DNA of 49,461 bases from a virus. The notes below the pieces were generated by a model. The model had not been told where the DNA came from, searched no databases, and worked only from the letters and a program-made list of their open reading frames with translations. A program made the translations under genes and the position numbers. Where the stretch lies: IMG/VR virus record IMGVR_UViG_3300046009_010293, positions 1 through 49,461 of that record, one strand, 5' to 3'. Of this stretch, positions 1,859 through 46,688 are shown one piece after another (position 1 is the first letter of the stretch; the number at the start of each line of letters is the position of its first letter).

Positions 1859-1950
1859 ATTTCACTCCCAGGCCCTGCGATCCAGGGCCTCACAGTGCAA
1901 TTTCGCACAACACCGCCAGGCGCAGCGCCCGGCAGCTTTAGGAGTAAACC

Positions 1951-4371
1951 ATGCAAGCAATCAACGCCCAGAGCATCATTAACCAACTGGCACAACTGGC
2001 CATCACGGCAAGCGAAGGCGACATATGCGGACCTGTCAATTTTGTGACTGTGCGCACAAGCGAGCGCGGATCTGTCCGCCTGCGCAACTTGCGCAGCAAC
2101 ATTGAGGCATACGCGGCCAGAGTGCGCAAAAATGCCGCTGCTTTTGGCGGTGGTTTGATCAAAAAACCAAAGGCAGGCCCAGCCATCATCTGGCCTGCCG
2201 GGTCAGTGAAACTGGTGGCCGAGATGCTCGAGGACGGCGACAAAGCAGGGGCCGCCACTCTTGCAATCCAAAAATGTGGCGCATTGTTTTTTATGTGGGG
2301 CTCGACCCCTTTTATGGCATGGGCACCCCAGGCAGTGGAAGGCCTGCCCGATTGTTTGGCCTCAGTGCGCAGCTCTTGTGCTGAAAACAAATGGCAGGTA
2401 ATCCACACAGAAACCGGCCGAAAGCTTGGCGACAACTTTTCAAGCCGCAAAGCCGCAGAGCAAAGCGCCCTGGACGCATGGGCCAATAAGCTTAACGACG
2501 CACAGCGCGCCCAGGTGCCCGCCATGAGCAAAGACCACAGCACCGAACAAGCACGCGCCCAATATTTGGCAGCAGCAGGCATTACCACTACCGAAGACCT
2601 GCAGGCCGACCCCGCACCCGTGCGCAAAGCAGCCAAAGCCACAGCTGTAGCCGTGATCGAAAGCGCCACCGAAATAGCAGCAGTGGCCGCCGTGGTGGCC
2701 ATCGCTCAGGCCCAGGCCAGCAGCGCAGCCGACCAGGTGGCGGCCGAGGCAACCCAAGCCGAGACCGAGGCCCTGCCCGAGCTGGTGACCGCTGAGGCCG
2801 AGGCCGACACGGTGGCCACGGTGGCGCAGGCCAACTACAGCGCACCGCTCAAGACCTTGACGCAGGCACCGGCGGGTCACTGTATGGCGTCGCTCAAGAC
2901 CCCGGCGGCAGATTTGCGCCACGAGTTTGGGCGCGCCAGTGTGCAGCGCAGCGCCGGTCGATCTGGCGCATGGTCGGCGGGTTTGTTTCGCAGTGATTCA
3001 GGGCGCGCGGCTTTGATGTTTGTTGGGCGTGATGGTGCGCACCACTTCAGCGACTATGAAACCGGATCTGAGCGCATGCGCGCCCTGCAGGCCATGGCCA
3101 GGCAGGCCGAGGCCGAGGCCGCACGCACGGCGGCCGATGGGGGGCATGGCCTGCAGAACGAGGCGCAGCCACGCAGCCAAAGCCAGGGCCAATCACAGCC
3201 ACAGCCACACGACCACGACCAGGCACACGCCCACGACCAGGCGGCCGAATGTGAGGAGCGCAACGACCACGGCGGGGCGCTGATGTGGCGGTGCATCGCG
3301 GCAGGGCGTCACGACTTGGCCGAGCGCGTGAGGGCCTGCAACACCCGGCAAGACCAGGCCGGATACTTGACCCCTGAAATCGGGCGCGCACGCGACACGA
3401 TCGCGCAGGAGTTGCGGGACTACATGGGATCGCTCAAGACCCAGGGGGCAAACACCCCCAGCGACTACATGGACCCCCTCAAGACCTTACCAGCGGTTGC
3501 AGGTTTTGAGCGTGCGAGGCCCTTGCGTGTTGATTTGCGGCTTTTGCTCAAAGGGGGCATGAGCATGGGGCAGTTGGTGGGCTTGGGGGTGAATTATTCG
3601 GGTGACCGGGCCAACCCAGCCCGCACGGGCGCTATTGTCAGCGCTGAGCCCTGCAAGTATTACGGGGTTCGGGTTGGCTTGGCTTTTGAAGATGGCAGCG
3701 AATGGGCAACCGATGCCCGCAGCTTTGGCGACAGCCCAGGCAACCGCTACGCCTTGAACTGGAAATACCACGGCGCGCCTTACTTGGCCCAACTGCAGGC
3801 GGCGCAAGCAGCCAAAAAGGCCAGCGAAAGCAGCGCCAAAGAGCGGGCCCAACACGCACACGCTCAAGACCTTGCGCGCTTGTCGGTAGAGTTTGCGCAC
3901 CTTGAGCGCGCCGAGGGCAAGCACCACGGCGGCCTGATGGCGGCGCGCAACATTCGGACTGTGCTCAAGCACGCATTCAAGACCGCTTATCCGGCGGTCA
4001 AATTCAGCGTGAAAAGCGATTACAGCAGCTGTTCGGTGAGTTGGACCGACGGCCCCAGCCAGGACGCGGTAGATGCACTTTTGGCACCGTTTGACATTGG
4101 GCGCAGTGACGCCCAAAACGATTATTTTTACACCGAGGGAACGGCATTTTCTGAGCTATTCGGGGGCGTGCAATACCTCAACACAAAGCGCGACTGCAGT
4201 CCCGCCATGGTTCAGGCCGCGATTGATGCCGAGTTTGCCGACTACTCAGAAAAACCCACAGTTCAGGATTGGGAAAAAGCGACGGGCATGCTCGACCATC
4301 ACCACAACTTGAGAAGCAGGATCTATGGATGCTTGCGTGCCATGAGTGCCCCAACACATGCCAAAGCCTGA
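1951..4371 (+). CDS. Large multidomain protein with an LPD29-like polyvalent-protein domain, 806 aa
   Basis: TTTAGGAG (1937-1944) supports the ATG at 1951. Residues 1-210 form a folded N-terminal region. Residues 215-290 are an alanine/glutamate-rich helix. Residues about 385-435 are low-complexity Gln/His/Ser. A compact domain follows at about 525-620 (LKGGMSMGQLVGLGVNYSG). Residues about 660-750 contain KFSVKSDYSSCSVSWTDGPS, resembling LPD29, a domain that occurs as an appendage in phage and plasmid polyvalent proteins. Such proteins are often thought to be injected with DNA or to counter host defences; that role is inference. Five copies of a dispersed DNA repeat lie inside the gene: four are read as PLKT or SLKT peptides and one, at 3852-3873, is read in a different frame. 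Confidence 0.75.
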   Translation: MQAINAQSIINQLAQLAITASEGDICGPVNFVTVRTSERGSVRLRNLRSNIEAYAARVRKNAAAFGGGLIKKPKAGPAIIWPAGSVKLVAEMLEDGDKAGAATLAIQKCGALFFMWGSTPFMAWAPQAVEGLPDCLASVRSSCAENKWQVIHTETGRKLGDNFSSRKAAEQSALDAWANKLNDAQRAQVPAMSKDHSTEQARAQYLAAAGITTTEDLQADPAPVRKAAKATAVAVIESATEIAAVAAVVAIAQAQASSAADQVAAEATQAETEALPELVTAEAEADTVATVAQANYSAPLKTLTQAPAGHCMASLKTPAADLRHEFGRASVQRSAGRSGAWSAGLFRSDSGRAALMFVGRDGAHHFSDYETGSERMRALQAMARQAEAEAARTAADGGHGLQNEAQPRSQSQGQSQPQPHDHDQAHAHDQAAECEERNDHGGALMWRCIAAGRHDLAERVRACNTRQDQAGYLTPEIGRARDTIAQELRDYMGSLKTQGANTPSDYMDPLKTLPAVAGFERARPLRVDLRLLLKGGMSMGQLVGLGVNYSGDRANPARTGAIVSAEPCKYYGVRVGLAFEDGSEWATDARSFGDSPGNRYALNWKYHGAPYLAQLQAAQAAKKASESSAKERAQHAHAQDLARLSVEFAHLERAEGKHHGGLMAARNIRTVLKHAFKTAYPAVKFSVKSDYSSCSVSWTDGPSQDAVDALLAPFDIGRSDAQNDYFYTEGTAFSELFGGVQYLNTKRDCSPAMVQAAIDAEFADYSEKPTVQDWEKATGMLDHHHNLRSRIYGCLRAMSAPTHAKA
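2832..2901 (+). repeat. Dispersed repeat, pair 1 (inside the 806-aa gene)
   Basis: Two copies carry the core CGCTCAAGACC. Copy one is AACTACAGCGCACCGCTCAA plus GACCTT, and copy two is GTATGGCGTCGCTCAAGACC. The CTCAAGACC cores are at 2848-2856 and 2893-2901, exactly 45 bp apart. They are translated as NYSAPLKTL and CMASLKTP. They belong to the same repeat family as the tandem array at 5073-5157. Confidence 0.85.
3418..3486 (+). repeat. Dispersed repeat, pair 2 (inside the 806-aa gene)
   Basis: Two copies (GACTACATGGGATCGCTCAA..., GACTACATGGACCCCCTCAA...) have CTCAAGACC cores at 3433-3441 and 3478-3486. They are again 45 bp apart, the same spacing as pair 1. They are translated as DYMGSLKTQ and DYMDPLKTL. 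Confidence 0.85.
3852..3873 (+). repeat. Dispersed repeat copy in a second reading frame
   Basis: ACACGCACACGCTCAAGACC matches the array unit ACACGCACCCGCTCAAGACC at all but one base. It is read in a different codon phase (QHAHAQDL) from the PLKT copies. The match is therefore at the DNA level and not a repeated peptide motif. Confidence 0.75.
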
Positions 4372-4388
4372 CACAAACACAAACACCC

Positions 4389-4451
4389 CAGGGCGCCAAA
4401 GCGTGCCCAGCGTCGCCCGGCGGCATTGTCGCCGGGCGAGCTGGCGCCCTG
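4389..4451 (+). other. Nested perfect hairpins between two genes
   Basis: The outer arms CAGGGCGCCA (4389-4398) and TGGCGCCCTG (4442-4451) pair perfectly over 10 bp. The inner arms CGCCCGGCG (4414-4422) and CGCCGGGCG (4430-4438) pair perfectly over 9 bp around a 7-nt loop. There is no T-tract, so this is not a canonical intrinsic terminator. It lies between the 806-aa gene and the helix-turn-helix gene, whose start is 23 bp downstream. Possible roles are an RNA processing site, attenuator or leader structure. Confidence 0.7.
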
Positions 4452-4473
4452 CCCGCAACCGAAAGAGTCAACC

Positions 4474-5064
4474 ATGAACCACCAAACATCCAAAGGCCAA
4501 CTACACACACCCGCTCAAGACCCAAGCCAGGGCACCATGACGGGCGCTGAGCTGGACACCTTGCGCCGGGCTTGCGGTTGGGACCGGGAGGACTTGGCCG
4601 ACTTGTGCCAGGTGCAAACGCGCACCATTAAGCACTGGCAAAGCGGGCGCGCAACCGTGCCTGACCAGGTGGCGCGCTTTGTCAGGGCGCAGGCGCTTTG
4701 GCTGCAGCATCTGACGGCGCGCACATTGCGGGAATATGCCGACGTGCTGGAGCTGGCCAGGGCCGACAAGCTGGGCGCGCCGCTTGAAGTAGTTTTGGTG
4801 CGCTACAAGGACTACGCGCACATTGTGGCGGGCAAGGGCTTAGAGACGCTCACGCCACCCCTGCACGCGGCGCTGACTTTGCGGGTGATGTTGGCCCTGC
4901 AGGCGCAAGGCTTGGTGGTGCGCTTGGTTTGGTTTGACCCGGTGGCGTTTGGCGAATGGGCCAAGCGCCAAGGGGTTGGCGACACCCCGGCCAGTCGCTC
5001 CGCTTGGGCCGCCGGTGAGGGTCTGGACGCGCAGATGCACGCCCACGGAAGCGGGCCGGACTGA
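4474..5064 (+). CDS. Helix-turn-helix DNA-binding protein, 196 aa (or 175 aa from 4537)
   Basis: The conserved part begins MTGAELDTLRRACGWDREDL and continues ADLCQVQTRTIKHWQSGRAT, an HTH of the Cro/C1 or YdiL (DUF1870) type. That type often starts directly at MTGAEL. The start at 4474 has a weak GAAAGAG site; the alternative is 4537. The 21 extra residues of the longer form are largely a copy of the dispersed repeat read as LHTPAQDP, so the repeat may have extended the gene or may lie in its leader. The C-terminal 110 residues are a helical domain of unknown role. It ends beside the tandem array at 5073. Confidence 0.75.
   Translation: MNHQTSKGQLHTPAQDPSQGTMTGAELDTLRRACGWDREDLADLCQVQTRTIKHWQSGRATVPDQVARFVRAQALWLQHLTARTLREYADVLELARADKLGAPLEVVLVRYKDYAHIVAGKGLETLTPPLHAALTLRVMLALQAQGLVVRLVWFDPVAFGEWAKRQGVGDTPASRSAWAAGEGLDAQMHAHGSGPD
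4499..4522 (+). repeat. Dispersed repeat copy at the start of the HTH gene
   Basis: AACTACACACACCCGCTCAA followed by GACC matches the 31-bp array unit with one or two changes. The core CTCAAGACC is at 4514-4522. It lies between two candidate start codons, 4474 and 4537, so it is either N-terminal coding sequence or leader. Confidence 0.8.
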
Positions 5065-5072
5065 GCGGGCCA

Positions 5073-5157
5073 ACTACACGCACCCGCTCAAGACCTTGGG
5101 GCGACTACACGCACCCGCTCAAGACCTTGGGGCGACTACACATACCCGCTCAAGACC
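5073..5157 (+). repeat. Tandem 31-bp repeat array, 2.8 copies, filling a convergent intergenic gap
   Basis: The unit ACTACACGCACCCGCTCAAG plus ACCTTGGGGCG starts at 5073, 5104 and 5135, an exact 31-bp period. The last copy stops at the reversed stop codon of the minus-strand zinc-finger gene (5158-5160). The first copy starts 8 bp after the HTH gene's stop. The whole gap between these convergent genes is therefore repeat. There is no hairpin plus T-tract, so it is not an obvious terminator, and no unique spacers are present, so it is not a CRISPR array. Confidence 0.9.
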
Positions 5158-5379
5158 TCACCCCGCAGCATCCAACGCCTTGAGCGCCTGCAAGATCGCC
5201 GCTTTGCTGGGTGCGCCTTGGTGGCGGGCGATGCTGGCGAACATGGCTTGCTGCGCGCCTTTGAGTGGACGCGCTGAGCGGATCAAGCGGGCGCAGCATT
5301 GGGTGCAGGTCATGCTGTACAACCCACTGAGCGGCTGTTGTTTGAAGTATTCGCAAGAGGTACATGGGGTGCTGGTCAT
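5158..5379 (-). CDS. Small cysteine-rich, probably zinc-binding protein, 73 aa
   Basis: The start at 5379 forms an ATGA overlap with the helicase stop, so it is probably translationally coupled to it. The N-terminus carries CTSCEYF and, about 15 residues later, CTQCC: two CxxC pairs that could bind one zinc ion. The rest is a basic helical tail (RSARPLKGAQQAMFASIARH). It is the last gene of the leftward early operon and its stop abuts the tandem repeat array. A role in DNA or RNA binding during replication is likely by position, but the family is not recognised. Confidence 0.75.
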   Translation of the reverse strand: MTSTPCTSCEYFKQQPLSGLYSMTCTQCCARLIRSARPLKGAQQAMFASIARHQGAPSKAAILQALKALDAAG

Positions 5380-6755
5380 AACTCGGGTTTGCTGCCAAAG
5401 CGGCCGCCGGGTTTGAAGGGTGGTGAGCCCGTCCAGTTGGTGAATTGGGTTTGTGAGCCCTCGTAGTGCAGGTGTAGCAACCCTGTCCGGCCCTGCCGGT
5501 TTTTGGCAACGCTCAGTTTGGCGTAGTTTTGCCACTCTGGCCCCAGGTCGGGGTTGGCCATAATGGGGCGTTTGATGAAGACAACGATGTCAGCATCTTG
5601 CTCAATGGCCCCGCTGTCTCGCAGATCGCTCAACATCGGCATTTGGTCTGGGCGCTCTTCGGCTTTGCGGCTGAGCTGGGCCAAGCACAGCACGCAAATT
5701 TGCAGTTCTTTGGCCAGCGCTTTGAGGCCGCGGCTGATTTCCTCAAGCTGGGTGTTTCGGTTGGCTTTGCTGTCCAAGCCTTGCATGAGGCCAATGTAGT
5801 CGACCACCAGCACATTAAGCCCATGCACCCGCTTGAGCGCCCGGGCTTTAGAGCGCACCTGGTTGATGTTCAAGCCGCCTTGGTCGCTGATGTGCAGGTT
5901 CAGCGTTCTGGCCCGCTCAACACCCTCGACCACACAATTCCAGTCCAGCCCCTGCCCGCGTGCTGGCCGCTTGACGGATGACAAACTCACACGCCCCAGC
6001 ATCGCCGTCAAGCGGTCATTCAATTGCGAGTGGCTCATTTCCATGCTCAGCAGGCCCACGGTGTAGCTCTCGGCCATGTTGACGCCAATGGTCAGGCCAA
6101 GCGCTGTTTTGCCCATGCTGGGGCGTGCGCCCACAATGATCAAATCACCAGGTAACGCGCCGCCATCAAGGTAGTCATCCAAATCAAACAAGCCCGTTGG
6201 CCATGCCTGAATCTTGCCGTCTTGCCGGTCTTGCAAAACCTGCATATGCCCACCCATGCCGTCAAAGGCGCTGACCCAATCGTCTTGAGGCGCATCCACC
6301 ACCAGGCCCGCCAACAGGCCTTGGGCCTTGTCGATGCGCTCGGCAATGGGGGTGTCGTGGTCGGCGGCCAAATCGATGCACTCGCCGCCCACACCCATGA
6401 GCTGGCGCGACTGGAAGCGCTCGACCACCAGGTCGGCATAGCGCCGCAAATTGGCCGCGCTGGGCACAAACTGCGCCAAGGCATTCAGCTCCTCAAGGCT
6501 GGCCGTGCCCCCCAAAGCGGCGGCCATGGTCAGTACATCGCAGCCCTTGCCAGCGGCCAACTGGCGGGCCAGCTCGGCAAAAATGGCCCGGTTTTGACTG
6601 CCCGAAAAATGCTCTGGCCGCAGCTTGTCGCCCAGCCTTTCCCAAGCCGAATTGTCCAGCAGCAAACAGCCCAAAATCGCATGCTCAGCCGTCGCAGCAG
6701 CGGCGGCAGATGTGGCCGCTTGGGCGTCTGCAGCGCGGGAATCGTAGCCCCTCAT
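5376..6755 (-). CDS. dnaB: Replicative DNA helicase, DnaB family
   Basis: At 459 aa it is the usual length for a phage DnaB-type hexameric helicase, which unwinds the fork 5' to 3' using ATP. The N-terminal domain starts with EHAILGCLLLDNSAWERLGD. The Walker A motif GARPSMGKT is at residues 209-217. Downstream are LNVLVVDYIGLM (Walker B), EISRGLKALAKEL, CLAQLSRKAEERP and SDLRDSGAIEQDADIV, all hallmarks of the family. It overlaps the upstream loader/initiator gene by ATGA and the downstream zinc-finger gene by ATGA, so the three form a replication module. Confidence 0.97.
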   Translation of the reverse strand: MRGYDSRAADAQAATSAAAAATAEHAILGCLLLDNSAWERLGDKLRPEHFSGSQNRAIFAELARQLAAGKGCDVLTMAAALGGTASLEELNALAQFVPSAANLRRYADLVVERFQSRQLMGVGGECIDLAADHDTPIAERIDKAQGLLAGLVVDAPQDDWVSAFDGMGGHMQVLQDRQDGKIQAWPTGLFDLDDYLDGGALPGDLIIVGARPSMGKTALGLTIGVNMAESYTVGLLSMEMSHSQLNDRLTAMLGRVSLSSVKRPARGQGLDWNCVVEGVERARTLNLHISDQGGLNINQVRSKARALKRVHGLNVLVVDYIGLMQGLDSKANRNTQLEEISRGLKALAKELQICVLCLAQLSRKAEERPDQMPMLSDLRDSGAIEQDADIVVFIKRPIMANPDLGPEWQNYAKLSVAKNRQGRTGLLHLHYEGSQTQFTNWTGSPPFKPGGRFGSKPEL

Positions 6756-7651
6756 GCGGCGTCTCCAGTTTTTTCAATCACGTGTTTCATGCCTTTTTCG
6801 GTCAACAAAAAATCAAAGTCGCAGCGCCACCCGGCGTGAGGCCCGGCGCGGGCAATTCGGCCCATCAAAAAGTCGTTGTCTCGGGCTCGGGCAAAGTATT
6901 CGCCCAGCCAAGCCATGGCCTCGTTGGGCCCCGTGGCACGGGGCGTGCCGTCTGATTTTTTGGACGTGAGCACCCACCGCCAAAGCGTGCCAATCGCTCG
7001 TTTTCGCCCGGCGTTCAAAAGTTTGACTCGAGGGAGTTCAGGGAGTTTTTCGTGAAAAACATCGACCACCGCTTGCGTTTGGCAAGGTGGCAGACCGGTC
7101 GGCAGCTTTGCTGGCGACGTATGTATTTCTTCTCTTACTCTTTCTCTTTCTCTAGGTAACGCACTGGTAACGCTTTGAGCGTTAGTTTTTTCTTCATCTC
7201 GCGTTAGCGGCTCTTGAAAAGCATGTTTTTCAGGCTGGTTCAGGCCTTCATCAGCACCATCGCCCAGGCCTTCACCCAAGCCTTCACCCAAGCCTTCAAC
7301 GCCCTGCAAAGCCTTGTGCTTGGCCACGCGCTTGGCCGTCTCGCAGCGCTTTTTGGCTGACGAACCGTTGTGCCGCTCAAAGTCCACAATGCGCACCCCG
7401 TCAGGGTGATCTGCCAACCAGTCGATCTGGCAAAGCGCATCGCCAAACCCCGATAACCCGGTTTTGCGGTCGATCTGGCGCAAGCTCAGGCCCGGCATCA
7501 CCCCGTCCTCAGTGTGCTGGTCGGCTGTGGCCCAAAGCCAATACAAAGCACCCACCACGGCAGCCTCTGAGCTGTTGGTCAAGTCCACCAACCGGGCAAC
7601 CCGTGGGTCATCCCACAAATTGCCACGCATCTTGATCCAATCACCCGCCAT
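6752..7651 (-). CDS. Phage replication initiator / helicase-loader-like protein, 299 aa
   Basis: The protein starts MAGDWIKMRGNLWDDPRVAR, typical of the winged-helix N-terminus of phage O or replisome-organiser proteins. Domain order is: N-terminal DNA-binding region (1-120), a basic stretch (AKKRCETAKRVAKHK), short GLGE repeats, a disordered linker, and a C-terminal helical domain (AMAWLGEYFARARDNDFLMG) like that of DnaT/O-type proteins that recruit helicase. A frame upstream of 7651 is open but only overlaps the preceding gene; the ATG lies inside the TATGGCGGGTGA end of that gene. Its stop overlaps the dnaB start (ATGA). Direct pairing with DnaB supports a loader role. Confidence 0.8.
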   Translation of the reverse strand: MAGDWIKMRGNLWDDPRVARLVDLTNSSEAAVVGALYWLWATADQHTEDGVMPGLSLRQIDRKTGLSGFGDALCQIDWLADHPDGVRIVDFERHNGSSAKKRCETAKRVAKHKALQGVEGLGEGLGEGLGDGADEGLNQPEKHAFQEPLTRDEEKTNAQSVTSALPRERERVREEIHTSPAKLPTGLPPCQTQAVVDVFHEKLPELPRVKLLNAGRKRAIGTLWRWVLTSKKSDGTPRATGPNEAMAWLGEYFARARDNDFLMGRIARAGPHAGWRCDFDFLLTEKGMKHVIEKTGDAA

Positions 7652-7961
7652 AGCGATAACCCCGCGCTGTATGGGCCGCATCGGCCTTGGCCAACGCCTG
7701 TTCAAACGCGGCATGGCGGGCGTACTGCACCGCGTCTGGCCGGGCCAAGATGGCCGCATCGCGGCGGGCCAAAAAATCAACCGCTTGGGCGCGGTGGTGG
7801 GGGTTGCCCGTGCGCACAAACTCAGCATAAGCCTGTTCGATCAACGGGCTCAAGCTGTTGATGTGGGCCTCAAGCTCCCGAGGGCTAGGGCTTGGCGATA
7901 ACGCAGCCACGGCAGTGTCGCAAGGGGCGCAAGGGGCGCAAGGGGCAAAAGTGGCGCTCAT
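7641..7961 (-). CDS. Hypothetical early protein with CAP repeats, 106 aa
   Basis: ATG at 7961 overlaps the upstream gene's stop (ATGA). The N-terminus contains APCAPCAPCD, produced by three copies of a 9-bp unit (around 7919-7947). A proline/serine stretch and a helical region (RELEAHINSLSPLIEQAYAE, then HHRAQAVDFLARRDAAI) follow. No known domain was recognised. It overlaps the replication initiator gene by 11 bp, indicating coupled translation within the early operon. Confidence 0.75.
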   Translation of the reverse strand: MSATFAPCAPCAPCDTAVAALSPSPSPRELEAHINSLSPLIEQAYAEFVRTGNPHHRAQAVDFLARRDAAILARPDAVQYARHAAFEQALAKADAAHTARGYRYGG

Positions 7962-8305
7962 GCCAACAGCCTCAGTTGCTTGGCAGGCACCACGTAGGTC
8001 TTGCACTTCATGCCCGTCTCGGGGTTCACCCGGGTGCCCACCACCAGCAGCGACTGCGCCGCCACCAACTCATTGACGCGGCCCGAAACCGACCCGTCTT
8101 TTTGACGGCCAAGCAGCCGCTCCATTTCGTCTTGAATCTCGGATCGCGTCACATCCGGCTGGCCGGTTTTGTGCAACCGAACAGCCGCCTCTAACACTTG
8201 GCGCATGGTGCGCTGGCGCACCCTCAGGCCCAACTGCTCAAAAGCGTCTGCAGAGGTGTTGACCACCTCAGCAGCGCTTGCGATAACTTGTTGATCATCT
8301 GTCAT
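7958..8305 (-). CDS. Winged-helix-like early protein, 115 aa
   Basis: A GGAGG site precedes the ATG at 8305. Residues about 30-90 have the helix-helix-strand layout of a winged helix (TRSEIQDEMERLLGRQKDGS, then VSGRVNELVAAQSLLVVGTR). The product is probably a small DNA-binding protein in the early operon. Its stop overlaps the next start (ATGA). No specific family was recognised. Confidence 0.75.
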   Translation of the reverse strand: MTDDQQVIASAAEVVNTSADAFEQLGLRVRQRTMRQVLEAAVRLHKTGQPDVTRSEIQDEMERLLGRQKDGSVSGRVNELVAAQSLLVVGTRVNPETGMKCKTYVVPAKQLRLLA

Positions 8306-8323
8306 GGTTTTGCCTCCAAAAGT

Positions 8324-8626
8324 TCAGCGCCACACCTGGCACACAAACGACAAAGCGTCCAGCCGCTCAGGCGCAGCTGGGGCCAACGAATACACACCCG
8401 CAGCGCGGCCGCCACCGGTGCGGCCGGGCTCGCCTGCCATGGCCAGCTCACCCGTGGCGCGCATGCGCTTGACGGCGTAGCGCACCCGCTCGGGCGGCCA
8501 GCCCGTGTGCTGGGCCAGCACATCCAGCGGGCCAGACACACCAGCGGCCAAGGCGCGCACCAGGGCAGCGCGCACAGGGCCGCATGTGCCACGCGGGCGG
8601 CCGGGTTTGCGGGGGGCGGCGGTCAA
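8324..8626 (-). CDS. Small HTH-like protein with TTG start, 100 aa
   Basis: The only sensible start is TTG at 8626, which forms a TTGA overlap with the stop of the CII-like gene. This matches the coupled style of the operon. The protein begins MTAAPRKPGRPRGTCG, a basic AT-hook-like GRPRG segment, then has a winged-helix pattern (LAQHTGWPPERVRYAVKRMR, ATGELAMAGE). A DNA-binding regulator is likely. No exact family was recognised. Confidence 0.7.
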   Translation of the reverse strand: MTAAPRKPGRPRGTCGPVRAALVRALAAGVSGPLDVLAQHTGWPPERVRYAVKRMRATGELAMAGEPGRTGGGRAAGVYSLAPAAPERLDALSFVCQVWR

Positions 8627-9009
8627 CCAACCACCTTCATGCGGGGTGGCTGCATGTTGTTCAGCCGCTCGATGCGCTTCATCAGGTCACCCAGCTGGGC
8701 GGTGGCCTCTATAAACTGGCGCTGCAGCTCTTGGGTTTCGTCGGCCACAGACACGGGCGTGGTGGGGGCATACCCCAAAGCGGTGCACAGCCAATCCATG
8801 GCCCCGTGCCATCCGCAGGCACGGGCAGACCGCATGACCAGCAGCACTTGTGTGGGGCTGATCTTGGCCTCGCGCTCGGGGTTGAGCGCGTCAAGCAGGC
8901 GGCGCTGGGCCTTGTCAACCGGCATGTCTGGCCAGAGGGTTTGGCCCACCTTTTTAGACCCGCCAGCGGCCTTGACGGCCTCGATCAAAACATCGTTGAA
9001 ATCATCCAT
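8623..9009 (-). CDS. CII-like (CP76-type) phage regulatory protein, 128 aa
   Basis: MDDFNDVLIEAVKAAGGSKK followed by VGQTLWPDMPVDKAQRRLLD, LNPEREAKISPTQVLLVMR and CGWHGAMDWLCTALGY match the pattern of Phage_CP76 (CII-type) regulators of betaproteobacterial and P2-like phages. A coiled C-terminal tail follows (QELQRQFIEATAQLGDLMKR). AAGGAG lies 7 bases before the ATG. It is the first gene of the early replication block after the divergent intergenic region, which carries an inverted repeat (9024-9074) likely to be its operator. Confidence 0.8.
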   Translation of the reverse strand: MDDFNDVLIEAVKAAGGSKKVGQTLWPDMPVDKAQRRLLDALNPEREAKISPTQVLLVMRSARACGWHGAMDWLCTALGYAPTTPVSVADETQELQRQFIEATAQLGDLMKRIERLNNMQPPRMKVVG

Positions 9010-9023
9010 TTTTTAACTCCTTA

Positions 9024-9074
9024 CGAACGCTTGCGAATCTTTGTTGACGGTGTTTTTTGTTTCGCAACCGTTCG
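9024..9074. promoter_or_regulatory. Inverted-repeat operator upstream of the CII-like gene
   Basis: CGAACGCTTGCGAA (9024-9037) recurs inverted as TTCGCAACCGTTCG (9061-9074), matching at 13 of 14 positions, with centres 37 bp apart. The intervening sequence is T-rich. It lies immediately upstream of the CII-like gene's ribosome binding site, where its promoter should be. The spacing of about 3.5 helical turns suggests two sites bound by one regulator, perhaps the CII-like protein itself. Bases 9075-9176 show nothing else I can support. Confidence 0.6.
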
Positions 9075-9176
9075 GATGACACCGGCGAGACAAAAAAAGA
9101 CACTTGCTGCATGAACCAAAAAACGAAACAGATAACCGGCGGCGGCCAAACAGTGGCGGCCCAGCTGGCAGAGGGT

Positions 9177-9240
9177 GGGCGCGTCCAGACGGGTACAGTT
9201 GGGCTTCTCACCACCAAACCGCAAACGAAAGGACGCGCCC
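9177..9240 (+). promoter_or_regulatory. 64-bp hairpin leader, copy 1, sequestering the ribosome binding site
   Basis: Arms GGGCGCGTCC (9177-9186) and GGACGCGCCC (9231-9240) are perfect reverse complements. The second arm begins inside the AAAGGA ribosome binding site and ends at the base before the ATG at 9241. The 44-nt loop contains GTACAGTTGGGCTTCTCACC. The same element, 60 of 64 bases identical, precedes the gene at 9991. Conservation starts exactly at the 5' arm; sequence further upstream is unrelated. Confidence 0.75.
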
Positions 9241-9603
9241 ATGAAACTGAACAAGGACGGAACGCTGGCACAAATCGATGTGAAGGGCCTGAAGACGGCA
9301 GCAGATGTGGAAGACCTGATAGAACAATTGGCCTTGCTGCGCGAGCACATGACACCCGCTGTGCCAGAAAACAAAGACGACACGAAGCTGCTACACATGA
9401 TCGACAACCCCAGCTTCAGCGCCGCGAGACTCAAGGACGGCGGGTTCAGGCTCTATGCCCGCAGCAGCGCCCTGGGCTGGATTGCGCTGAACATCAACAA
9501 AGACAACGCGCCCATGCTCACCAGCTGGATGCTGGCCAACATGGACTGGCTCAGCGGCCTCATCAAGCAAAGCGACGGCGAGGGGGATGCGTCGGTACAT
9601 TAG
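9241..9603 (+). CDS. Hypothetical accessory protein, 120 aa
   Basis: The start at 9241 follows AAAGGA, which lies at the edge of the hairpin leader. The N-terminal helix includes AADVEDLIEQLALLREHMTP. The C-terminal part (FRLYARSSALGWIALNINKD, APMLTSWMLANMDWLSGLI) is hydrophobic but not clearly membrane-spanning. It is on the plus strand, opposite to the surrounding early operon, and overlaps the end of the next minus-strand gene by 4 bp. It is probably an independently expressed accessory (moron) gene controlled through its leader. Not recognised. Confidence 0.7.
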   Translation: MKLNKDGTLAQIDVKGLKTAADVEDLIEQLALLREHMTPAVPENKDDTKLLHMIDNPSFSAARLKDGGFRLYARSSALGWIALNINKDNAPMLTSWMLANMDWLSGLIKQSDGEGDASVH

Positions 9604-9887
9604 GTACTCTGCCTTTGGGTGGTTTGGGTATCGGCGGGGTCACTCATACCAATGGCCGCCTGAGAGGCCTGGATGGACTCGGAAACCAGCTCGGCAATCA
9701 CCTTCTCGACATAAGCACCAACACGCACACCGTGCTTGATAAAGCACGAGGAAGAACACTGGCCGCCGGCGGAATAGGCGCGGACCTCAACCCCCCCGAG
9801 GTCCGTATTGATCCCAACCGTCACATAATCAAACCCCTTGTGAAGGGTGTGTTTTGCCTTTGTGCGGCTATTGAAAGAAATAAGCAT
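9600..9887 (-). CDS. Hypothetical early protein, 95 aa
   Basis: AAGGAA lies just upstream of the ATG at 9887. The sequence shows a strand-rich core (HKGFDYVTVGINTDLGGVEV), two cysteines (GGQCSSSCFIKHG) and a helical C-terminus with AELVSESIQASQAA. No motif was recognised. It lies in the leftward early direction between two plus-strand accessory genes. Confidence 0.65.
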   Translation of the reverse strand: MLISFNSRTKAKHTLHKGFDYVTVGINTDLGGVEVRAYSAGGQCSSSCFIKHGVRVGAYVEKVIAELVSESIQASQAAIGMSDPADTQTTQRQST

Positions 9888-9926
9888 TTAGATTCCTTGC
9901 CTTTGGGCGGTTGGGTTGGCGTGGGC

Positions 9927-9990
9927 GGGCGCGTCCAAATGTGTACAGTTGGGCTTCTCACCACCAAACCGCAAACGAAAGGACGCACCC
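9927..9990 (+). promoter_or_regulatory. 64-bp hairpin leader, copy 2
   Basis: Arms GGGCGCGTCC (9927-9936) and GGACGCACCC (9981-9990) pair with a single C-A mismatch. The same 44-nt loop layout, AAAGGA site and immediate ATG (9991) occur as in copy 1. The distance from first arm base to ATG is 64 bp in both copies. Only four bases differ between copies, three of them in the loop and one in the 3' arm. Confidence 0.75.
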
Positions 9991-10206
9991 ATGAAAAAGA
10001 AAATCAAGACCATCACAGTTGCAGAGTTACGAGTCAGATTGCTCAACGAGCTAAACGCCTTAAACGACAACGACGAAGTGACCTTTGGAGGCGGCAGGCT
10101 CAGCCTGTGTCGCCCAAAAAACAGAGGGCCAAAGACTGGCAAACAACTGGTGGACATAGAGTTCAACGAGGTTTACGAAGTGGTAGCGGACCCGAACGAC
10201 TCTTGA
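9991..10206 (+). CDS. Small hypothetical accessory protein, 71 aa
   Basis: The product starts MKKKIKTITVAELRVRLLNE and reads LNDNDEVTFGGGRLSL, then ends with VDIEFNEVYEVVADPNDS: a small alpha/beta protein. It resembles the first leader-controlled gene only in its 5' leader and MK start, not in sequence. It overlaps the convergent 129-aa gene by 34 bp. Function unknown. Confidence 0.65.
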   Translation: MKKKIKTITVAELRVRLLNELNALNDNDEVTFGGGRLSLCRPKNRGPKTGKQLVDIEFNEVYEVVADPNDS

Positions 10207-10562
10207 ATCTGCGCCCTCAAATCAGCCAAAAGCTCTGGGACTGCAACCCCAAGCAGCCGCTGGTCGCTTTGGTGGGCGTAACTCGAATCAACCTCCCCCA
10301 TGAATTGACTTCCCAGGTACGCCCGGCCCTCTTTGTTCAGGAGGATTTCAATGCGGGCCACTGTGTCGTACAAGCCGGGCTCTGCAGCCGGGGCGGCCTT
10401 TGGCTTGGTAGCTTGGCGAACCGGAGCGCCGTCAATATCCCAGCGATTGTTCATTCGGGACAGATACTTTTCGAGCAGTTCATTGGTCTTGCGCTGCTCA
10501 GCCAACATGTCGGCAATCAATGCCTCGGAGGCGGGCGTGAGCGTGGGCTTGGATTCAGTCAT
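10173..10562 (-). CDS. Early protein sharing the RWDIDGxPVR motif with the tape measure, 129 aa
   Basis: AAGGACT precedes ATG 10562. A helix (ADMLAEQRKTNELLEKYLSR) is followed by MNNRWDIDGAPVRQ, then a basic linker and a C-terminal helical part ending QESFGSATTS. The segment RWDIDGAPVR (10416-10445) matches RWDIDGVPVR at the C-terminus of the tape measure protein (30602-30631), in both cases right after a helix. It lies between Cro and the CII-like gene in the early operon. The function is unknown. Confidence 0.7.
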   Translation of the reverse strand: MTESKPTLTPASEALIADMLAEQRKTNELLEKYLSRMNNRWDIDGAPVRQATKPKAAPAAEPGLYDTVARIEILLNKEGRAYLGSQFMGEVDSSYAHQSDQRLLGVAVPELLADLRAQIQESFGSATTS

Positions 10563-10578
10563 GGGTGAGTCCTTGGGG

Positions 10579-10794
10579 TTAGGCGTTGGTGGGGGTATCG
10601 GCGGGGGTTGGGGTGGGTGGTGTTGCGCTGTCCGAGAGGCCGACAAACCACTCAGGCCGCATGGCCTTCATTTGCCAAACCCGCGCATCAGGGACCGATT
10701 CGCCCCACTGCGAAACAGCACTTATTGATATGCCCAACAGGCGAGCGAGCGCGGTCGAAGAACCGGCCAGCTTGATTGCATTTTTTGTTTCCAT
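10579..10794 (-). CDS. Cro-like repressor, 71 aa
   Basis: The sequence METKNAIKLAGSSTALARLL with GISISAVSQWGESVPDARVW is a YdaS/Cro-type helix-turn-helix of expected length. GAGG sits just upstream of the ATG. It is the first gene of the leftward early operon and is divergent from the CI-like gene, 66 bp away. The intergenic gap carries the operator GTTTAGCATACTAAAC overlapping its probable -10 box. The C-terminus is a proline/threonine tail. This is the lytic side of the switch. Confidence 0.85.
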   Translation of the reverse strand: METKNAIKLAGSSTALARLLGISISAVSQWGESVPDARVWQMKAMRPEWFVGLSDSATPPTPTPADTPTNA

Positions 10795-10800
10795 GCCTCA

Positions 10801-10843
10801 GTTTAGCATACTAAACGAAAATTGGAAGCCCTCTAAACTTTTA
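10801..10843. promoter_or_regulatory. Immunity operators between cro-like and CI-like genes
   Basis: GTTTAGCATACTAAAC (10801-10816) has perfect 6-bp arms with a 4-bp centre. CTAAACTTTTAG (10832-10843) carries related half sites in the opposite arrangement. On the minus strand a TTTAGA / TAGTAT pair, spaced 18 bp, overlaps both elements and would be the leftward early promoter, repressed when the operator is occupied. The same 16-bp operator occurs at 11906-11921. Confidence 0.7.
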
Positions 10844-10860
10844 GCAGGCTTAATAAGCAC

Positions 10861-11349
10861 ATGGAATTAAAAGACCGCATCAAAGCAGCGATGCAGCACG
10901 CTGGACTTGAAAAGTCAGCGCTGGCAGCGCGCTCGCGGGTCTCCAAAGGGGCTGTGACCCAATGGCTAGACGGAACAACCAAAAGCCTCAAGGCGGACAA
11001 AGCCGAATCACTCGCCACAGCGACGGGCGTAAGCATCAAATGGCTTGTTACAGGGGTGGGCCTCATGGTCAACCCAGCCGGTCAAACACAGGGGCCACAA
11101 AATCACCATGTTGCCGATACATTCACCCCCCTGTACCCCAGTAACACCCCCCAAACTCATGACATAAAAAAGGCCCTTCAAACCCTTTCGCAGGCTTTGA
11201 CCGACTTGGATATGGTTGGTCGGCAGCAAATAGCCCCGCTCTTTGAGAGCTTTGCAAGAGCCCCCGGCCAAGTCATCATTGAAGACATTGCCGCACTGCT
11301 GAAAGAACGCAAGCAAATCAAAAGCAGCGCAGCCGAAAAAGCTGCTTAG
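10861..11349 (+). CDS. CI-like repressor lacking a self-cleavage domain, 162 aa
   Basis: The N-terminal HTH domain reads MELKDRIKAAMQHAGLEKSA, then RSRVSKGAVTQWLDGTTK and LATATGVSIKWLVTG, typical of HTH_3 phage repressors. The C-terminal part is short and helical (DIKKALQTLSQALTDLDMVG). There is no S24/LexA peptidase Ser-Lys pair, so induction cannot proceed by RecA-stimulated autocleavage and must use an antirepressor or another signal (inference). No clear ribosome binding site is visible before the ATG, so the mRNA may be leaderless. It is divergent from the Cro-like gene. Confidence 0.85.
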   Translation: MELKDRIKAAMQHAGLEKSALAARSRVSKGAVTQWLDGTTKSLKADKAESLATATGVSIKWLVTGVGLMVNPAGQTQGPQNHHVADTFTPLYPSNTPQTHDIKKALQTLSQALTDLDMVGRQQIAPLFESFARAPGQVIIEDIAALLKERKQIKSSAAEKAA

Positions 11350-19136: not shown

Positions 19137-19774
19137 AAGAACGACCAATCCTTTTCAGCCCACCCATGGTGCGACCCTTGCTGGATGGCAGCAAGACACA
19201 GACGCGGCGGGTGGTGAAGCTTCGCAATGGCCAGTACATGCCACCTAGCGAGAGGGCAGACATAAACGGCTGGCGGCAACTCTTGCGAAACTGCCCCTAC
19301 GGCCAGCCAGGTGACAGGCTTTGGGTGCGGGAGAATTTTGCAGACCTTCGTGGCACAGGAATTGAGCACAGGCCCGACCCATCAGGCCCACTCAAACGCT
19401 ACGCTTTTGCAGCGGATCACCCACCAGGCTCACATGGGGACGAAGCCCGTAAAGAATTTGGGGTCAAGTGGAAGCCTAGCATCCACATGCCCCGTGCCGC
19501 CAGCCGCATCACGCTGGAAATCACCAGCGTGCGCGTGGAGCGCCTGCAAGACATCAGCGAAGACGATGCGCTTGCCGAGGGCTGCTCATCCACAGCAATA
19601 GTCCACGAAGACGGCGAGGACTACACGGGCCACTACGCTTCGGAGGAATATCAAGACCTATGGGAGTCCATCAACGGCCCTGGAAGCTGGGGCGCTAATC
19701 CATGGGTATGGGTTGTCGAGTTTCGCAAATCTAACCCGCCATCCGCTTCGCCAAATCCCCCGCGCTCGGATTGA
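19133..19774 (+). CDS. ASCH/PUA-like phage protein, 213 aa
   Basis: The start MKERPILFSPPMVRPLLDGS with KTQTRRVVK is the signature of a widespread phage family, sometimes labelled morphogenetic protein, thought to have an ASCH/PUA-like fold that binds nucleic acid. GDRLWVREN, SRITLEITSVRVERLQDISE and the C-terminal YQDLWESINGPGSWGANPWV, WVVEF agree. It is the last gene of the rightward operon and its end overlaps the convergent integrase gene by 44 bp. Confidence 0.8.
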   Translation: MKERPILFSPPMVRPLLDGSKTQTRRVVKLRNGQYMPPSERADINGWRQLLRNCPYGQPGDRLWVRENFADLRGTGIEHRPDPSGPLKRYAFAADHPPGSHGDEARKEFGVKWKPSIHMPRAASRITLEITSVRVERLQDISEDDALAEGCSSTAIVHEDGEDYTGHYASEEYQDLWESINGPGSWGANPWVWVVEFRKSNPPSASPNPPRSD

Positions 19775-20741
19775 AATAGGTTAGCGCCCTGGTGGTGGAT
19801 TTCCACCCAAAGACCTTGCACAAGTCCAACACATGCAGCCGCTGCGCCAAGCGCGTGGCGGCGGTGTGGCGGGTGTCGTGAAAGGTGAAGCCCACCAGCC
19901 CCGCCTTATCCCTTGCCCGCCTGAAAAACGCATCCAGCGTTTGCGCTTTGATGCCCAGCAGGGTGTCGCCACTCCAACCTTCCAGCATCTTGATCACGCG
20001 CACGGCCGTGGGCGTCAGGGGCACGTCACGTTTGCCGGTTTTGCCGGATCTGATCTTGAGGTGGTCCGGCATCACATCGCCAGGCTTCAGGCCGCAAAGC
20101 TCGCCCGCACGCATGCCCGTCATCAGGGCCAGCACAAAAGTGACGGCGGCGGCTTGCTGCACGTTGCGCACGCGGCGCAGGCCATACGGCTGCCGGGTAG
20201 GCCAGCCGAGCTGCCGCATCATCTTGCGGGTTTCGAGGCCGGTGATCACGCGGTCGCGGTGATCAGGCTGGGCAGGTCGGCGCACGCCTTGCGCGGGGTT
20301 GACATCGAGCCAGCCCCATTCACGCCGGGCGTGCTCCAGCACCGAGGCCAGCAGCGTGAGGTCGCGCAGCACGGTGCCCTTGGCCACTTTGGCCAGGCGG
20401 GCATCGCGCCACCGGGCCACATCTTCGGGCACCAGGTCGGCCAGCTTTTTACCCAGGGGCAGGGGGGCGTGGGCGGGTGTCTCAAAGGATTGCAGGCGAA
20501 TGACCTCCCACCGCTCGCCACGTTTGGACGGGCTGACCTCTTCGGCATAGCGGCGCAGCGCATCGCGCAAAGTCTTGACCGACCCGGCGCGGCCTGATCG
20601 CATGGCCCGGAGCTCGGTGGCTTTGCGGGCAGCCCAGGCGGTGGCTTGGGCTTTGGTGTCAAACGTGCCGGATGGCCGCTGGCCAGCCACTTGAATCTGA
20701 ACCCACCACCTGCCTGTGGCTGTCTTTTTTGGCGTTGCCAT
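19731..20741 (-). CDS. int: Tyrosine-family site-specific integrase, 336 aa
   Basis: It recombines attP with a host tRNA attB. It has a typical arm-binding start (MATPKKTATGRWWVQIQVAG), a SAM-like core-binding domain, and a catalytic domain with Arg in ALMTGMRAGELCGL, a Lys in SGKTGKRDVPL, the HxxR box HDTRHTAATR, and the nucleophile Tyr in ALTYFNPS. The usual second His is a Trp (FGWKS), an accepted variant. The gene lies beside its attP candidate (20886-20906) and convergent to the rightward accessory operon, so read-through may regulate it. Confidence 0.97.
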   Translation of the reverse strand: MATPKKTATGRWWVQIQVAGQRPSGTFDTKAQATAWAARKATELRAMRSGRAGSVKTLRDALRRYAEEVSPSKRGERWEVIRLQSFETPAHAPLPLGKKLADLVPEDVARWRDARLAKVAKGTVLRDLTLLASVLEHARREWGWLDVNPAQGVRRPAQPDHRDRVITGLETRKMMRQLGWPTRQPYGLRRVRNVQQAAAVTFVLALMTGMRAGELCGLKPGDVMPDHLKIRSGKTGKRDVPLTPTAVRVIKMLEGWSGDTLLGIKAQTLDAFFRRARDKAGLVGFTFHDTRHTAATRLAQRLHVLDLCKVFGWKSTTRALTYFNPSAGDLAKRMAG

Positions 20742-24802: not shown

Positions 24803-25354
24803 TCAGCCCCTGCTTGCAATCAAGCCGCTGCAAACGCCAGCGGCAAAAGCGGAATAAAAAGCGTCTTGCGCCAGCGCGCCAGAGTCTGGAATAAGCCGGT
24901 AGCGCGTGACGCCACCCAGCGTGTAGGCCTGCACATCACCAAGGGCCGGGGAGGTGGCGCGGCCTTGGTCGGTGGGGTCGGCGCTGAACTGAAGCACAAG
25001 GTAACTCCAGGTCAACACGGGTTCACCAGGCAGGCCGGGTTCACCTTGCGCACCTTGCGCACCTTGCGCACCGGGCGCACCGGGCGCACCGGGGTCGCCC
25101 TTGAAAAACGGGGCCAACTGCGCGACCACCTCTATGGACGGCTGGGCGTCAAGCTCCAGCGTGCCGCCTGTGCCCATTTGCAGCACGGCACTGGCACTGA
25201 AGTAGGGCTGGGCCTCAAGCACCAGCGTGCCGCCCGTGCCCAGCTGCAGCACGGCGCTGGCCGTGAGCTGCGGCTGCGCGTCAAGCTCCAGCGTGCCGCC
25301 TGCACCCATGTGCAGCAAGGCGCTGACTGTCAGGTAGGGCAACAGGGTGCTCAT
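24803..25354 (-). CDS. Collagen-like tail protein, 183 aa
   Basis: Three 22-residue repeats (e.g. LTASAVLQLGTGGTLVLEAQ) open the protein. A collagen-like Gly-X-Y stretch (GDPGAPGAPGAQGAQGAQGE) follows, which can trimerise fibre stalks, then a globular tip (TWSYLVLQFSADPTDQGRAT). The Gly-X-Y DNA is a 9-bp tandem repeat prone to length change. Coupled to the previous gene by ATGA. Confidence 0.75.
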   Translation of the reverse strand: MSTLLPYLTVSALLHMGAGGTLELDAQPQLTASAVLQLGTGGTLVLEAQPYFSASAVLQMGTGGTLELDAQPSIEVVAQLAPFFKGDPGAPGAPGAQGAQGAQGEPGLPGEPVLTWSYLVLQFSADPTDQGRATSPALGDVQAYTLGGVTRYRLIPDSGALAQDAFYSAFAAGVCSGLIASRG

Positions 25355-44474: not shown

Positions 44475-46688
44475 TTATTCAAATCCGCGACTGAGCCAGT
44501 CGCTGGGTGCAAAGGGGTTGGCGGCGGGCTGGGGCCGGGGCGTGGGCGGTGGGGGCACGCGCTGGGGCCGGGGTGCGGCGGGTTGGTTGGCTGCCGGTGG
44601 CGCAGCGGGCACGGGCGCAGAGGCCGCCACCTTGGGCGGATCCACCACCTCCGTGGCCACCACATCCACCACCACCCTCGCCCCGGCCTTCACCGGCTCC
44701 ACAAACGTGCCCGAGGGCTCAAACAAGTCAGGCAGCAGGGCTTGCTCCAGCCGCTCCCATTGGCGTTCGGTCAGCTTGTGGTGGTCCAGCGCTTGGCTGG
44801 CAAACAGGGCGTACACAAAGGTGTCCAGCGGCTCGTTGCGGTCGCGCACTTTCATCCAGCGGTGCTTTACGCCCGTGGTGGTGCGCACTTGGCGGCGCAC
44901 TTCGCTGGTCAGGCCCTCAAAGTAGCCGCTGGTCAGCGCTTGGCTGAAGTGCACATACCCCGGGCCCGGGTCTTTGAGCGTGAGGCGCGAAAAAATCAGG
45001 TCTTTGGCGGTGTCGGTGCCCACCCACCACAGCTTGAGACCGCGCTTGATGACGCGGCCCTTGTGGTTCACGTCCACCACACTGGCCTTGCCCTTGATGG
45101 GCTTGCCCTCGGCGCTGTCGCCCTTGATGGCAAACACCCGTTCGGCCGAATGCGCCCGGCAAAAGTTGTAGGCAATGTGGGTGTGGTTACCGCCGGTGTC
45201 AACGGCCGCAGCAGATATGCGCATGGGCGCGCCGTGCCAGTGGTAGAACGTGGTTTGCAGGTAGGGCCAGAGCTTGGCATCCCAATCGCGCTCGTCGCCG
45301 GGGTTGCCGTCAAACTCCACGTAGTCGACCACCCAGGTTTGGCCGTTGCGGCCTATGGCCAGCACGGTCACGGCCCACCATTTGTCCTGCGTGTCCACCC
45401 CGGCCACCAGGTCGAGCCCGCCCACGGGCACGCGGCGCAGGGGGTAGGCTTCGGCCCGGCGTTGCAGTTCGTGGCTGTCGGCTTTTTCTACCTCTTCTTC
45501 CCAGGTCTCGCCCAGGGTTTCGTTTTTGAACCCCTCCATCGCCCCCCGGTCGCCCGCCTTGAAGGCCGCCAGCGCGTGCAAAAACTCCCGCATAATCACG
45601 GCCCAGGTGGTTTGGGGGCTGTAGGCCGTCCACACATGCGCGCCTACATGGCGCGGCGGCGTCATGAGCTTGCAACCCGCGCCGTCTGTCCAAAAATAGT
45701 TCCCGTCTTCCAGCGCGTGGCAGCGGTAGTTGCCGCAGTCGCTCACCCACAAACCGGCGTGCCAAATGCGCAAATACTGCGCCTGCGTCAGCTTGTGGTG
45801 GCAATGCGGGCACACATGGTGCACCGTGCCCTCGGGGTCGTGCGCGTCCCACTTAAAGCCGTGCTGCACATCGGGCCCACCCCACTGCAGCGGGTGCTCT
45901 ACCCCGCAGCTGGGGCACTCCACCCGAAAGCGCATGCGCGCCTGCGCCGCCAAAAACCGGCGCTCAGTGTGGTCCATGCCCTTCAGGCGCGGCGTGCTGC
46001 CCACGATGGCCTTGGGCCAGGTGGCGCCCTCCAGGCGCTTCCACATGAGCGTCCAGGGGTCGGCGCTTTTTTCAATCTTCTGGTCAAACGCGCTGAACTC
46101 GTCGGCATACACGGTTTGCAGCGTCATCCGCCGGTAGTTGCCCGCGCTGGTACCGCCCTTCAAGAACAAAAGCGAGCCCAGAAACTTCTTCATGTTCAAG
46201 GTGTTGGCCTTGCTTTTGCGCATGTGGTCAGGGAACACGCCCTTCATCACCTTCACGTCGCGCAGCATGGGCTCAATCTCAGCCTTGCAAAACTCGTCGC
46301 TGTCGGCGTCGGTCGGCTGCCACAGGCACTGGTTGCGCCGCTTGTGCTGCGCCCCAAACGCCACGCTGGCCAGCAGCATCTTGGTATACCCAGTACGAGC
46401 GCTTTTGAGCATGTCCACCTCTTCAATGTGGTCGTCGCCCATCATGCAAAGCAGCCCGCGCTGGTAGGGGTAGCTCACCCACTTCTTTTCGCCCTGGCTG
46501 CTTTCAGCGCTCAGGTAAAAATGCCGCTCCGCCCACTGATGCAACGTCAACGGCTCCGGCGTCTTCAAAGCCTCCAACCCCCGCGCCACCGCCGCCCGCA
46601 CCGCCACCCGCAACCCCGAAGGCATGCGTCCCCAGCTGGCGGCCGTCAGCTCGGGGCGAATGTCGAACGGGAGGTCGCGGGCGCTCAT
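44475..46688 (-). CDS. terL: Terminase large subunit, GpA family, 737 aa
   Basis: ATP-driven motor and nuclease that cuts and packages DNA at cos sites. The Walker A-like motif SARTGYTK is at residues 96-103, Walker B VYADE at 193-197. A zinc-binding insert (CPSCGVEHP...CPHCHHKL) and the nuclease domain with Asp residues (GGLDLVAGVDTQD, AAAVDTGGN, PLDTFVYA) follow. Length matches the lambda GpA family. A proline-rich C-terminal tail ends PSDWLSRGFE. ATGA overlap with the methyltransferase upstream. Confidence 0.95.
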   Translation of the reverse strand: MSARDLPFDIRPELTAASWGRMPSGLRVAVRAAVARGLEALKTPEPLTLHQWAERHFYLSAESSQGEKKWVSYPYQRGLLCMMGDDHIEEVDMLKSARTGYTKMLLASVAFGAQHKRRNQCLWQPTDADSDEFCKAEIEPMLRDVKVMKGVFPDHMRKSKANTLNMKKFLGSLLFLKGGTSAGNYRRMTLQTVYADEFSAFDQKIEKSADPWTLMWKRLEGATWPKAIVGSTPRLKGMDHTERRFLAAQARMRFRVECPSCGVEHPLQWGGPDVQHGFKWDAHDPEGTVHHVCPHCHHKLTQAQYLRIWHAGLWVSDCGNYRCHALEDGNYFWTDGAGCKLMTPPRHVGAHVWTAYSPQTTWAVIMREFLHALAAFKAGDRGAMEGFKNETLGETWEEEVEKADSHELQRRAEAYPLRRVPVGGLDLVAGVDTQDKWWAVTVLAIGRNGQTWVVDYVEFDGNPGDERDWDAKLWPYLQTTFYHWHGAPMRISAAAVDTGGNHTHIAYNFCRAHSAERVFAIKGDSAEGKPIKGKASVVDVNHKGRVIKRGLKLWWVGTDTAKDLIFSRLTLKDPGPGYVHFSQALTSGYFEGLTSEVRRQVRTTTGVKHRWMKVRDRNEPLDTFVYALFASQALDHHKLTERQWERLEQALLPDLFEPSGTFVEPVKAGARVVVDVVATEVVDPPKVAASAPVPAAPPAANQPAAPRPQRVPPPPTPRPQPAANPFAPSDWLSRGFE

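Follow-up and report, generated by a model that had tools for sequence, protein, structure and literature searches.

Gene layout and repeat copies

The window analysed here is the IMG/VR record IMGVR_UViG_3300046009_010293 over its whole length of 49,461 bp. Gene-family searches assign it to a temperate tailed phage, with recognisable head and tail genes besides the genes for integrase, CI-like repressor, CII-like protein, O-like Rep, DnaB helicase and the large terminase subunit (Table 1). Two operons meet head-on at position 5158. The rightward operon encodes proteins of 250, 148 and 806 amino acid residues (aa), followed by a helix-turn-helix (HTH) regulator; the leftward operon encodes the CII-like protein, Rep, DnaB and a 73-aa Cys-rich protein. 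The subject of this study, a short DNA repeat in nine copies, is clustered where the rightward operon ends and fills the gap between the convergent operons.

An earlier note on this DNA had described nine copies within 2.3 kb and none elsewhere. The nine copies were confirmed: the 9-mer CTCAAGACC starts at 2848, 2893, 3433, 3478, 3863, 4514, 5087, 5118 and 5149, all within these 2.3 kb and on the plus strand, from which the 806-aa and HTH genes are transcribed. The claim of absence elsewhere holds for the complete unit, whereas the bare 9-mer is also present at 28291 and 46766 (minus strand), where the rest of the unit is missing. The 11-mer CGCTCAAGACC occurs eight times in the window, every time inside the claimed region, and reversed-pattern controls gave zero occurrences. 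In 300 dinucleotide-preserving shuffles of positions 2801-5200, no 11-mer reached more than three copies compared with the eight observed, which excludes chance. With a weight matrix, the weakest true copy in the window scored 37 bits and the next-best match 16.6 bits, without intermediates, and a search of the window allowing up to 5 mismatches of 17 revealed no further plausible copy.

The repeat had been taken for a uniform 31-bp element. The conserved unit is instead a bipartite 23-mer, ACTACA-N6-CGCTCAAGACC, and 31 bp is only the period of the tandem copies. When the six copies outside the tandem array are compared with the tandem consensus, mismatches fall at 4 of 36 positions in ACTACA, at 19 of 36 in the N6 spacer and at 1 of 66 in the core. 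Hence, both blocks are nearly invariant and the 6-bp spacer is near random (p = 2e-9 for the difference between spacer and blocks). Despite the collection of copies by the core, no degenerate copies were seen in the window.

Five copies reside in the 806-aa gene and, as previously noticed, include two pairs spaced by 45 bp (2848/2893 and 3433/3478) as well as one copy in another frame: four are read as LKT and one as AQDL. All four LKT copies use the codons CTC AAG ACC, with CTC representing only 13-16% of the leucine codons; the chance of sharing these codons, estimated from codon usage, is 1e-6 to 9e-4. This comparison of peptide and codons within the phage favours constraint on DNA. Copy 6 had been placed between two possible start codons of the HTH gene. 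Its location was reproduced, but the alignment of the HTH protein with Aca2 begins at the second ATG (4537) as Met1, so that the copy probably belongs to the leader of this gene. The last three copies follow each other between the HTH stop codon (5064) and that of the convergent gene (5158), in agreement with the earlier description. Because the copies occupy two frames and non-coding DNA, the constraint acts on DNA. The earlier proposal that selection or spread acts on DNA, and not on a peptide, gains support from the bipartite conservation, from the use of more than one frame, from synonymous positions that do not vary and from the recurrence of the element in a second phage and in a spacer of a clustered regularly interspaced short palindromic repeats (CRISPR) array, described below.

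Table 1 Positions of the repeat copies, neighbouring genes and other features in the window
Feature	Position	Strand	Remarks
Copy 1 of ACTACA-N6-CGCTCAAGACC, in 806-aa gene (NYSAPLKTL)	2834..2856	+	0 mismatches in both blocks
Copy 2, in 806-aa gene (HCMASLKTP)	2879..2901	+	ACTACA 2 mismatches, core 0
Copy 3, in 806-aa gene (DYMGSLKTQ)	3419..3441	+	0 mismatches
Copy 4, in 806-aa gene (DYMDPLKTL)	3464..3486	+	core 1 mismatch
Copy 5, in 806-aa gene, other frame (HAHAQDL)	3849..3871	+	ACTACA 2 mismatches
Copy 6, 14 nt before ATG 4537, probably in leader of HTH gene	4500..4522	+	
Copy 7, first of intergenic tandem array (31-bp period)	5073..5095	+	
Copy 8, second of tandem array	5104..5126	+	
Copy 9, third of tandem array, abuts stop codon of convergent gene	5135..5157	+	
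806-aa gene with C-terminal LPD29 (large polyvalent protein-associated) domain, contains five copies	1951..4371	+	PF18847, E=3e-12
Strong GC-rich inverted repeat upstream of HTH gene, after 806-aa gene	4391..4450	+	RNA fold z=-3.25, 0/200 shuffles as stable
175-aa HTH regulator, Aca2-like over ~100 aa	4537..5064	+	PDB 7ezy Aca2, E=8e-4; HTH_31
73-aa Cys-rich protein gene, last of leftward replication operon, convergent with HTH gene	5158..5379	-	also adjoins the array in phage G002
DnaB helicase	5376-6755		family search
O-like Rep	6752-7828		family search
Origin-like element inside Rep gene: polypyrimidine/polypurine tract (AGAGAAAGAGAAGAG) preceded by GGTAACGC/GCGTTAG repeats	7127..7209		
CII-like protein	8623-9009		family search
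CI-like repressor	10861-11349		family search
Integrase	19731-20741		family search
Terminase large subunit	44475-46688		family search

Recurrence in phage G002 and repeats at the matching place in G409

Scans of IMG/VR yielded one other clear locus (L015), in phage G002 (IMGVR_UViG_3300048672_001068, 44,264 bp), which was singled out by position-weight scoring and then confirmed by a stricter tandem scan. G002 contains three tandem copies with a period of 33 bp, all with invariant cores. As in the window, this array lies behind an HTH gene and runs into the stop codon of a convergent Cys-rich gene, the product of which matches its 73-aa homologue at 45% over the aligned part. The two arrays agree at 85% over 94 bp, and the proteins common to both phages (terminase, head, tail and the N-domain of Rep) are mostly ~30-70% identical.

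Among 401 bacterial genomes sampled from a single family, to which Limnohabitans sp. B9-3 belongs, five single matches were found. One of them, in bacterium G215, proved to be a spacer from a CRISPR array with 122 spacers (L278, about 1940-9380), identified as type I-F by the adjoining Csy1, Csy2 and Csy3. Spacer 75 matches the second repeat copy of G002 at 28 of 32 positions, with a 5' CC contributed by the preceding unit, and spacer 71 matches G002 elsewhere at 30 of 32 positions, without CC. The dinucleotide CC is the usual protospacer adjacent motif of type I-F systems. As spacer 75 is unlike both phages, a third phage carrying the repeat probably exists. Two phages and one spacer are the known carriers and, given the G002 triplet and the spacer match, the element recurs in at least two phages, probably three. 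Since its spacers match G002, G215 is plausibly a host or a relative of a host; the phages of this group probably infect Burkholderiales. The spacer indicates that a host targets such a repeat, in which case one spacer could cut several places of one genome.

Neither the array nor the 806-aa protein had a match among the INPHARED phage records, and close homologues of the 806-aa gene suited to a codon comparison between phages were not found. A loose 22-bp pattern in genome contigs and a loose tandem pattern in viral contigs produced mostly chance matches among those listed. Two further matches were discounted: locus L029 (score 38.9), a lone match within a gene that looks cellular, was put down to chance, and H5, found on a Rhizobium plasmid (E=6e-3), is a single match of 30 bp. 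The Cys-rich gene was rejected as the carrier of the repeat, since its homologues in other genomes lack the repeat in those flanks that could be read; one phage homologue of this gene sits in a nin-like region.

N-terminal homologues of the 806-aa gene were recognised in phage G409 and in G251. The related phage G409 (IMGVR_UViG_3300032322_001560, L367), with a terminase at 55% and the 806-aa homologue at 35%, carries between 6170 and 6990 two repeats unrelated to that of the window, A (CCTCCGGCGGAAG, six copies) and B (CGTGCAAAAGACAC, four copies). Their sites occupy the second half of the 806-aa homologue and the next gap before a convergent gene, in mixed frames and also outside genes. Among 86 sequences examined on one strand, irregularly scattered repeats were present in the window and in G409 only; the other repeats encountered formed regular tandem arrays or belonged to weak families of low copy number. 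The locus thus appears to gain repeats again and again, perhaps by selection or by tolerance. A bolder generalisation would be that each phage of the group has its own dispersed, frame-independent sites at the end of the accessory operon (of the type shared by the window and G002, or A and B in G409), which co-diverge with a putative binder that separates or silences convergent transcription; such sites would make up a novel class of regulatory array in phages, one that runs on through coding DNA. We regard this as rather unlikely.

The repeat as putative protein-binding sites

A protein-binding array, one of the possibilities raised in the earlier note, is the best reading of the bipartite conservation, the mixed frames and the recurrence. 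With a probability of about 0.52, the repeat is a family of non-palindromic bipartite sites recognised by a sequence-specific factor of the phages of this group, perhaps acting as a stoperator-like roadblock. The fixed distance between the blocks, the free spacer, the single orientation and the independence from reading frame all argue for sites of this kind. The binding protein may be a monomer that contacts DNA through two of its parts and would cover each site over approximately two helical turns. The tandem triplet (period of 31 or 33 bp, approximately three turns) would act as the strong cluster where the convergent operons end; copies scattered elsewhere may be weaker sites with a spacer that drifts with coding needs. 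The most likely role, bearing about half of the confidence given above, would be to impede transcription, as a polar roadblock or a silencer, along the rightward accessory operon and over the junction where the operons converge; it is suggested by the position of the triplet at this junction and by the lack of an intrinsic terminator-like site in the window gap 5064-5158.

The closest analogues are the stoperators of L5-type mycobacteriophages. The L5-type repressor is a monomer with two DNA-binding domains; it recognises asymmetric sites that are most variable in their middle and halts elongation (PMC9283540). Similar to these, the repeat consists of short asymmetric sites along the direction of transcription, bipartite with a variable middle and scattered in a temperate phage, and all nine copies have the same orientation, although three of the nine constitute one tandem block. 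In contrast, L5-type sites are 13 bp long, occur genome-wide and at promoters and are bound by the immunity repressor, whereas the sites of the window have 23 bp, are restricted to 2.3 kb, lie partly in coding sequence and are missing at the early promoter and immunity region. The lack of a copy in the immunity region speaks against stoperators of the immunity repressor. Another precedent is the SPbeta repeated element (SPBRE), a phage-specific repeat detected in silico, the binder of which, MrpR, became known only decades later (PMC10516654). SPBRE has 15 bp and is located in promoter regions, while the copies of the window lie mostly in coding sequence and in one convergent gap.

Several observations weigh against binding sites and a roadblock. 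The tandem copies 7-9 have common linkers, a sign of recent duplication, and scattered copies are restricted to the window, G002 holding just the tandem triplet. The invariance of the core arises partly by construction, because the copies were first collected by the exact core, and a peptide (N/D)Y..(P/S)LKT could account for some of the bipartite pattern among the four copies read in frame. No copy is located at a recognised promoter or in the immunity region 9009-10861. Lastly, the missing terminator is weak support for a roadblock, since terminator-like matches lie nearby in both the window and G002.

Two readings at the level of RNA were discarded. A conserved RNA fold was rejected since the plus-strand array is somewhat more stable than shuffles in the window (z -2.67) but not in G002 (z -0.15), and a Rho site in the C-rich array leaves the invariant 9-mer unexplained. 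The array also differs from a CRISPR array, which has regular repeats and unique spacers of constant length: here the tandem units abut and the other gaps are irregular.

Phage genomes are dense, and it is unusual for recognition sites to extend across coding sequence in several reading frames. If a protein binds them, they would offer a handle on the organisation of the accessory operon and on the separation of convergent transcription in this phage group, and a testable new family of sites.

Alternative explanations and other repeats

The main rival to binding sites is a miniature selfish repeat or drifting minisatellite that spreads by slippage or recombination and is tolerated without function for the phage, an explanation we consider possible, if on the doubtful side. 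Such tolerance would follow from a unit that is open in all three plus-strand frames and lands in linker regions, and the unit is indeed stop-free in all plus-strand frames and has stops in two frames of the minus strand. In the 806-aa protein, copies 1 and 2 come after a stretch of low complexity rich in A/E, the tandem copies share their linkers, and the unrelated scattered repeats at the matching place in G409 look as if the locus tolerates repeats. Neutral copies should nevertheless decay evenly, whereas here the spacer has drifted and the blocks have been preserved. Moreover, the site persists at the matching junction of the diverged phage G002, and the wider search found no copies dispersed across other genomes. 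The repeat also lacks the features of miniature inverted-repeat transposable elements and repetitive extragenic palindromic elements, namely inverted repeats and genome-wide dispersal, as no substantial inverted repeat was found in the sequence of the 23-bp unit and its copies are limited to 2.3 kb. For a recombination hotspot, another earlier suggestion, no evidence was found.

Should the repeat consist of binding sites, the neighbouring HTH protein, put forward in the earlier note, is a possible but not favoured binder. According to this proposal, which we consider unlikely, the copies are operators of the Aca2-like protein, which would regulate its own gene via the leader copy and the triplet behind its stop codon. 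The regulator gene is flanked by repeat copies, copy 6 being only 14 nt away from the probable start and the triplet directly 3' of the gene, and the G002 triplet is likewise 3' of an HTH gene. However, Aca2 binds inverted repeats as a dimer (PMC8434428), while the 23-mer is a direct, non-palindromic repeat. Aca2 operators are inverted repeats in the promoter region of the aca gene; in the window, the HTH gene is already preceded by a separate strong inverted repeat at 4391-4450, a candidate operator or RNA stem-loop of the Aca2-like protein. In addition, tblastn with the HTH protein of the window did not find that of G002, and the two differ in the recognition-helix region. The mode of binding of its relatives and the different HTH protein of G002 thus leave the Aca2-like protein a weak candidate. 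Homologues were absent from the 401 bacterial genomes in a search run without a positive control, and an AlphaFold model computed without an alignment had low confidence (predicted local distance difference test score of 46) and was not used. As Aca2 is an anti-CRISPR-associated protein, and in view of the type I-F link to the host, the neighbourhood of the HTH gene (4537-5064) could hold anti-CRISPR genes.

A replication origin, also considered in the earlier note, would make the array a set of iterons bound by the O-like Rep protein. Direct repeats in one orientation, close to the genes for Rep and DnaB and with a spacing near three helical turns, resemble lambda-type iterons (PMC7466680). 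The lambda origin, however, lies inside gene O (PMC7466680), with its iterons beside an AT-rich tract, and iteron origins in general are found at or in the initiator gene together with an AT-rich or unwinding tract. The array is separated from the Rep gene by ~1.6 kb, beyond DnaB. The window has an origin-like element of the expected kind away from the array, inside the Rep gene at 7127-7209, which is probably a lambda-like replication origin. Similar elements exist in most of 80 Rep loci (Rep homologues L284-L363), purine runs of at least 20 being present in 66 of them and at least two CGTTA-type motifs before a tract in 42, compared with 2% of random windows. In these Rep relatives, up to 76% identical, the array is missing in the DNA compared. 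The likely origin within Rep and the relatives without the repeat make an iteron array very unlikely.

The weakest proposal, a peptide motif (N/D)Y-x-x-(P/S)-L-K-T repeated in the 806-aa protein, of which the DNA pattern would be a by-product, draws on the LKT frame of four of the five copies in this gene and on the 33-bp array of G002, which is open in the LKT frame, but is largely refuted and hardly tenable, since at least five copies are ruled out by frame or position (copy 5 and the HTH-leader copy are in another frame, and the triplet with its 31-bp period follows the HTH stop codon), synonymous positions are invariant, and four of five copies in one frame have a chance of ~0.14 (binomial estimate).

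Two further repeats were observed in the window, a GC-rich minisatellite with 9/18-bp units (CACCACCGGCACCACGCC) at 97-220, the left end of the record, and a 66-bp tandem repeat of 2.8 copies at 25138-25325.

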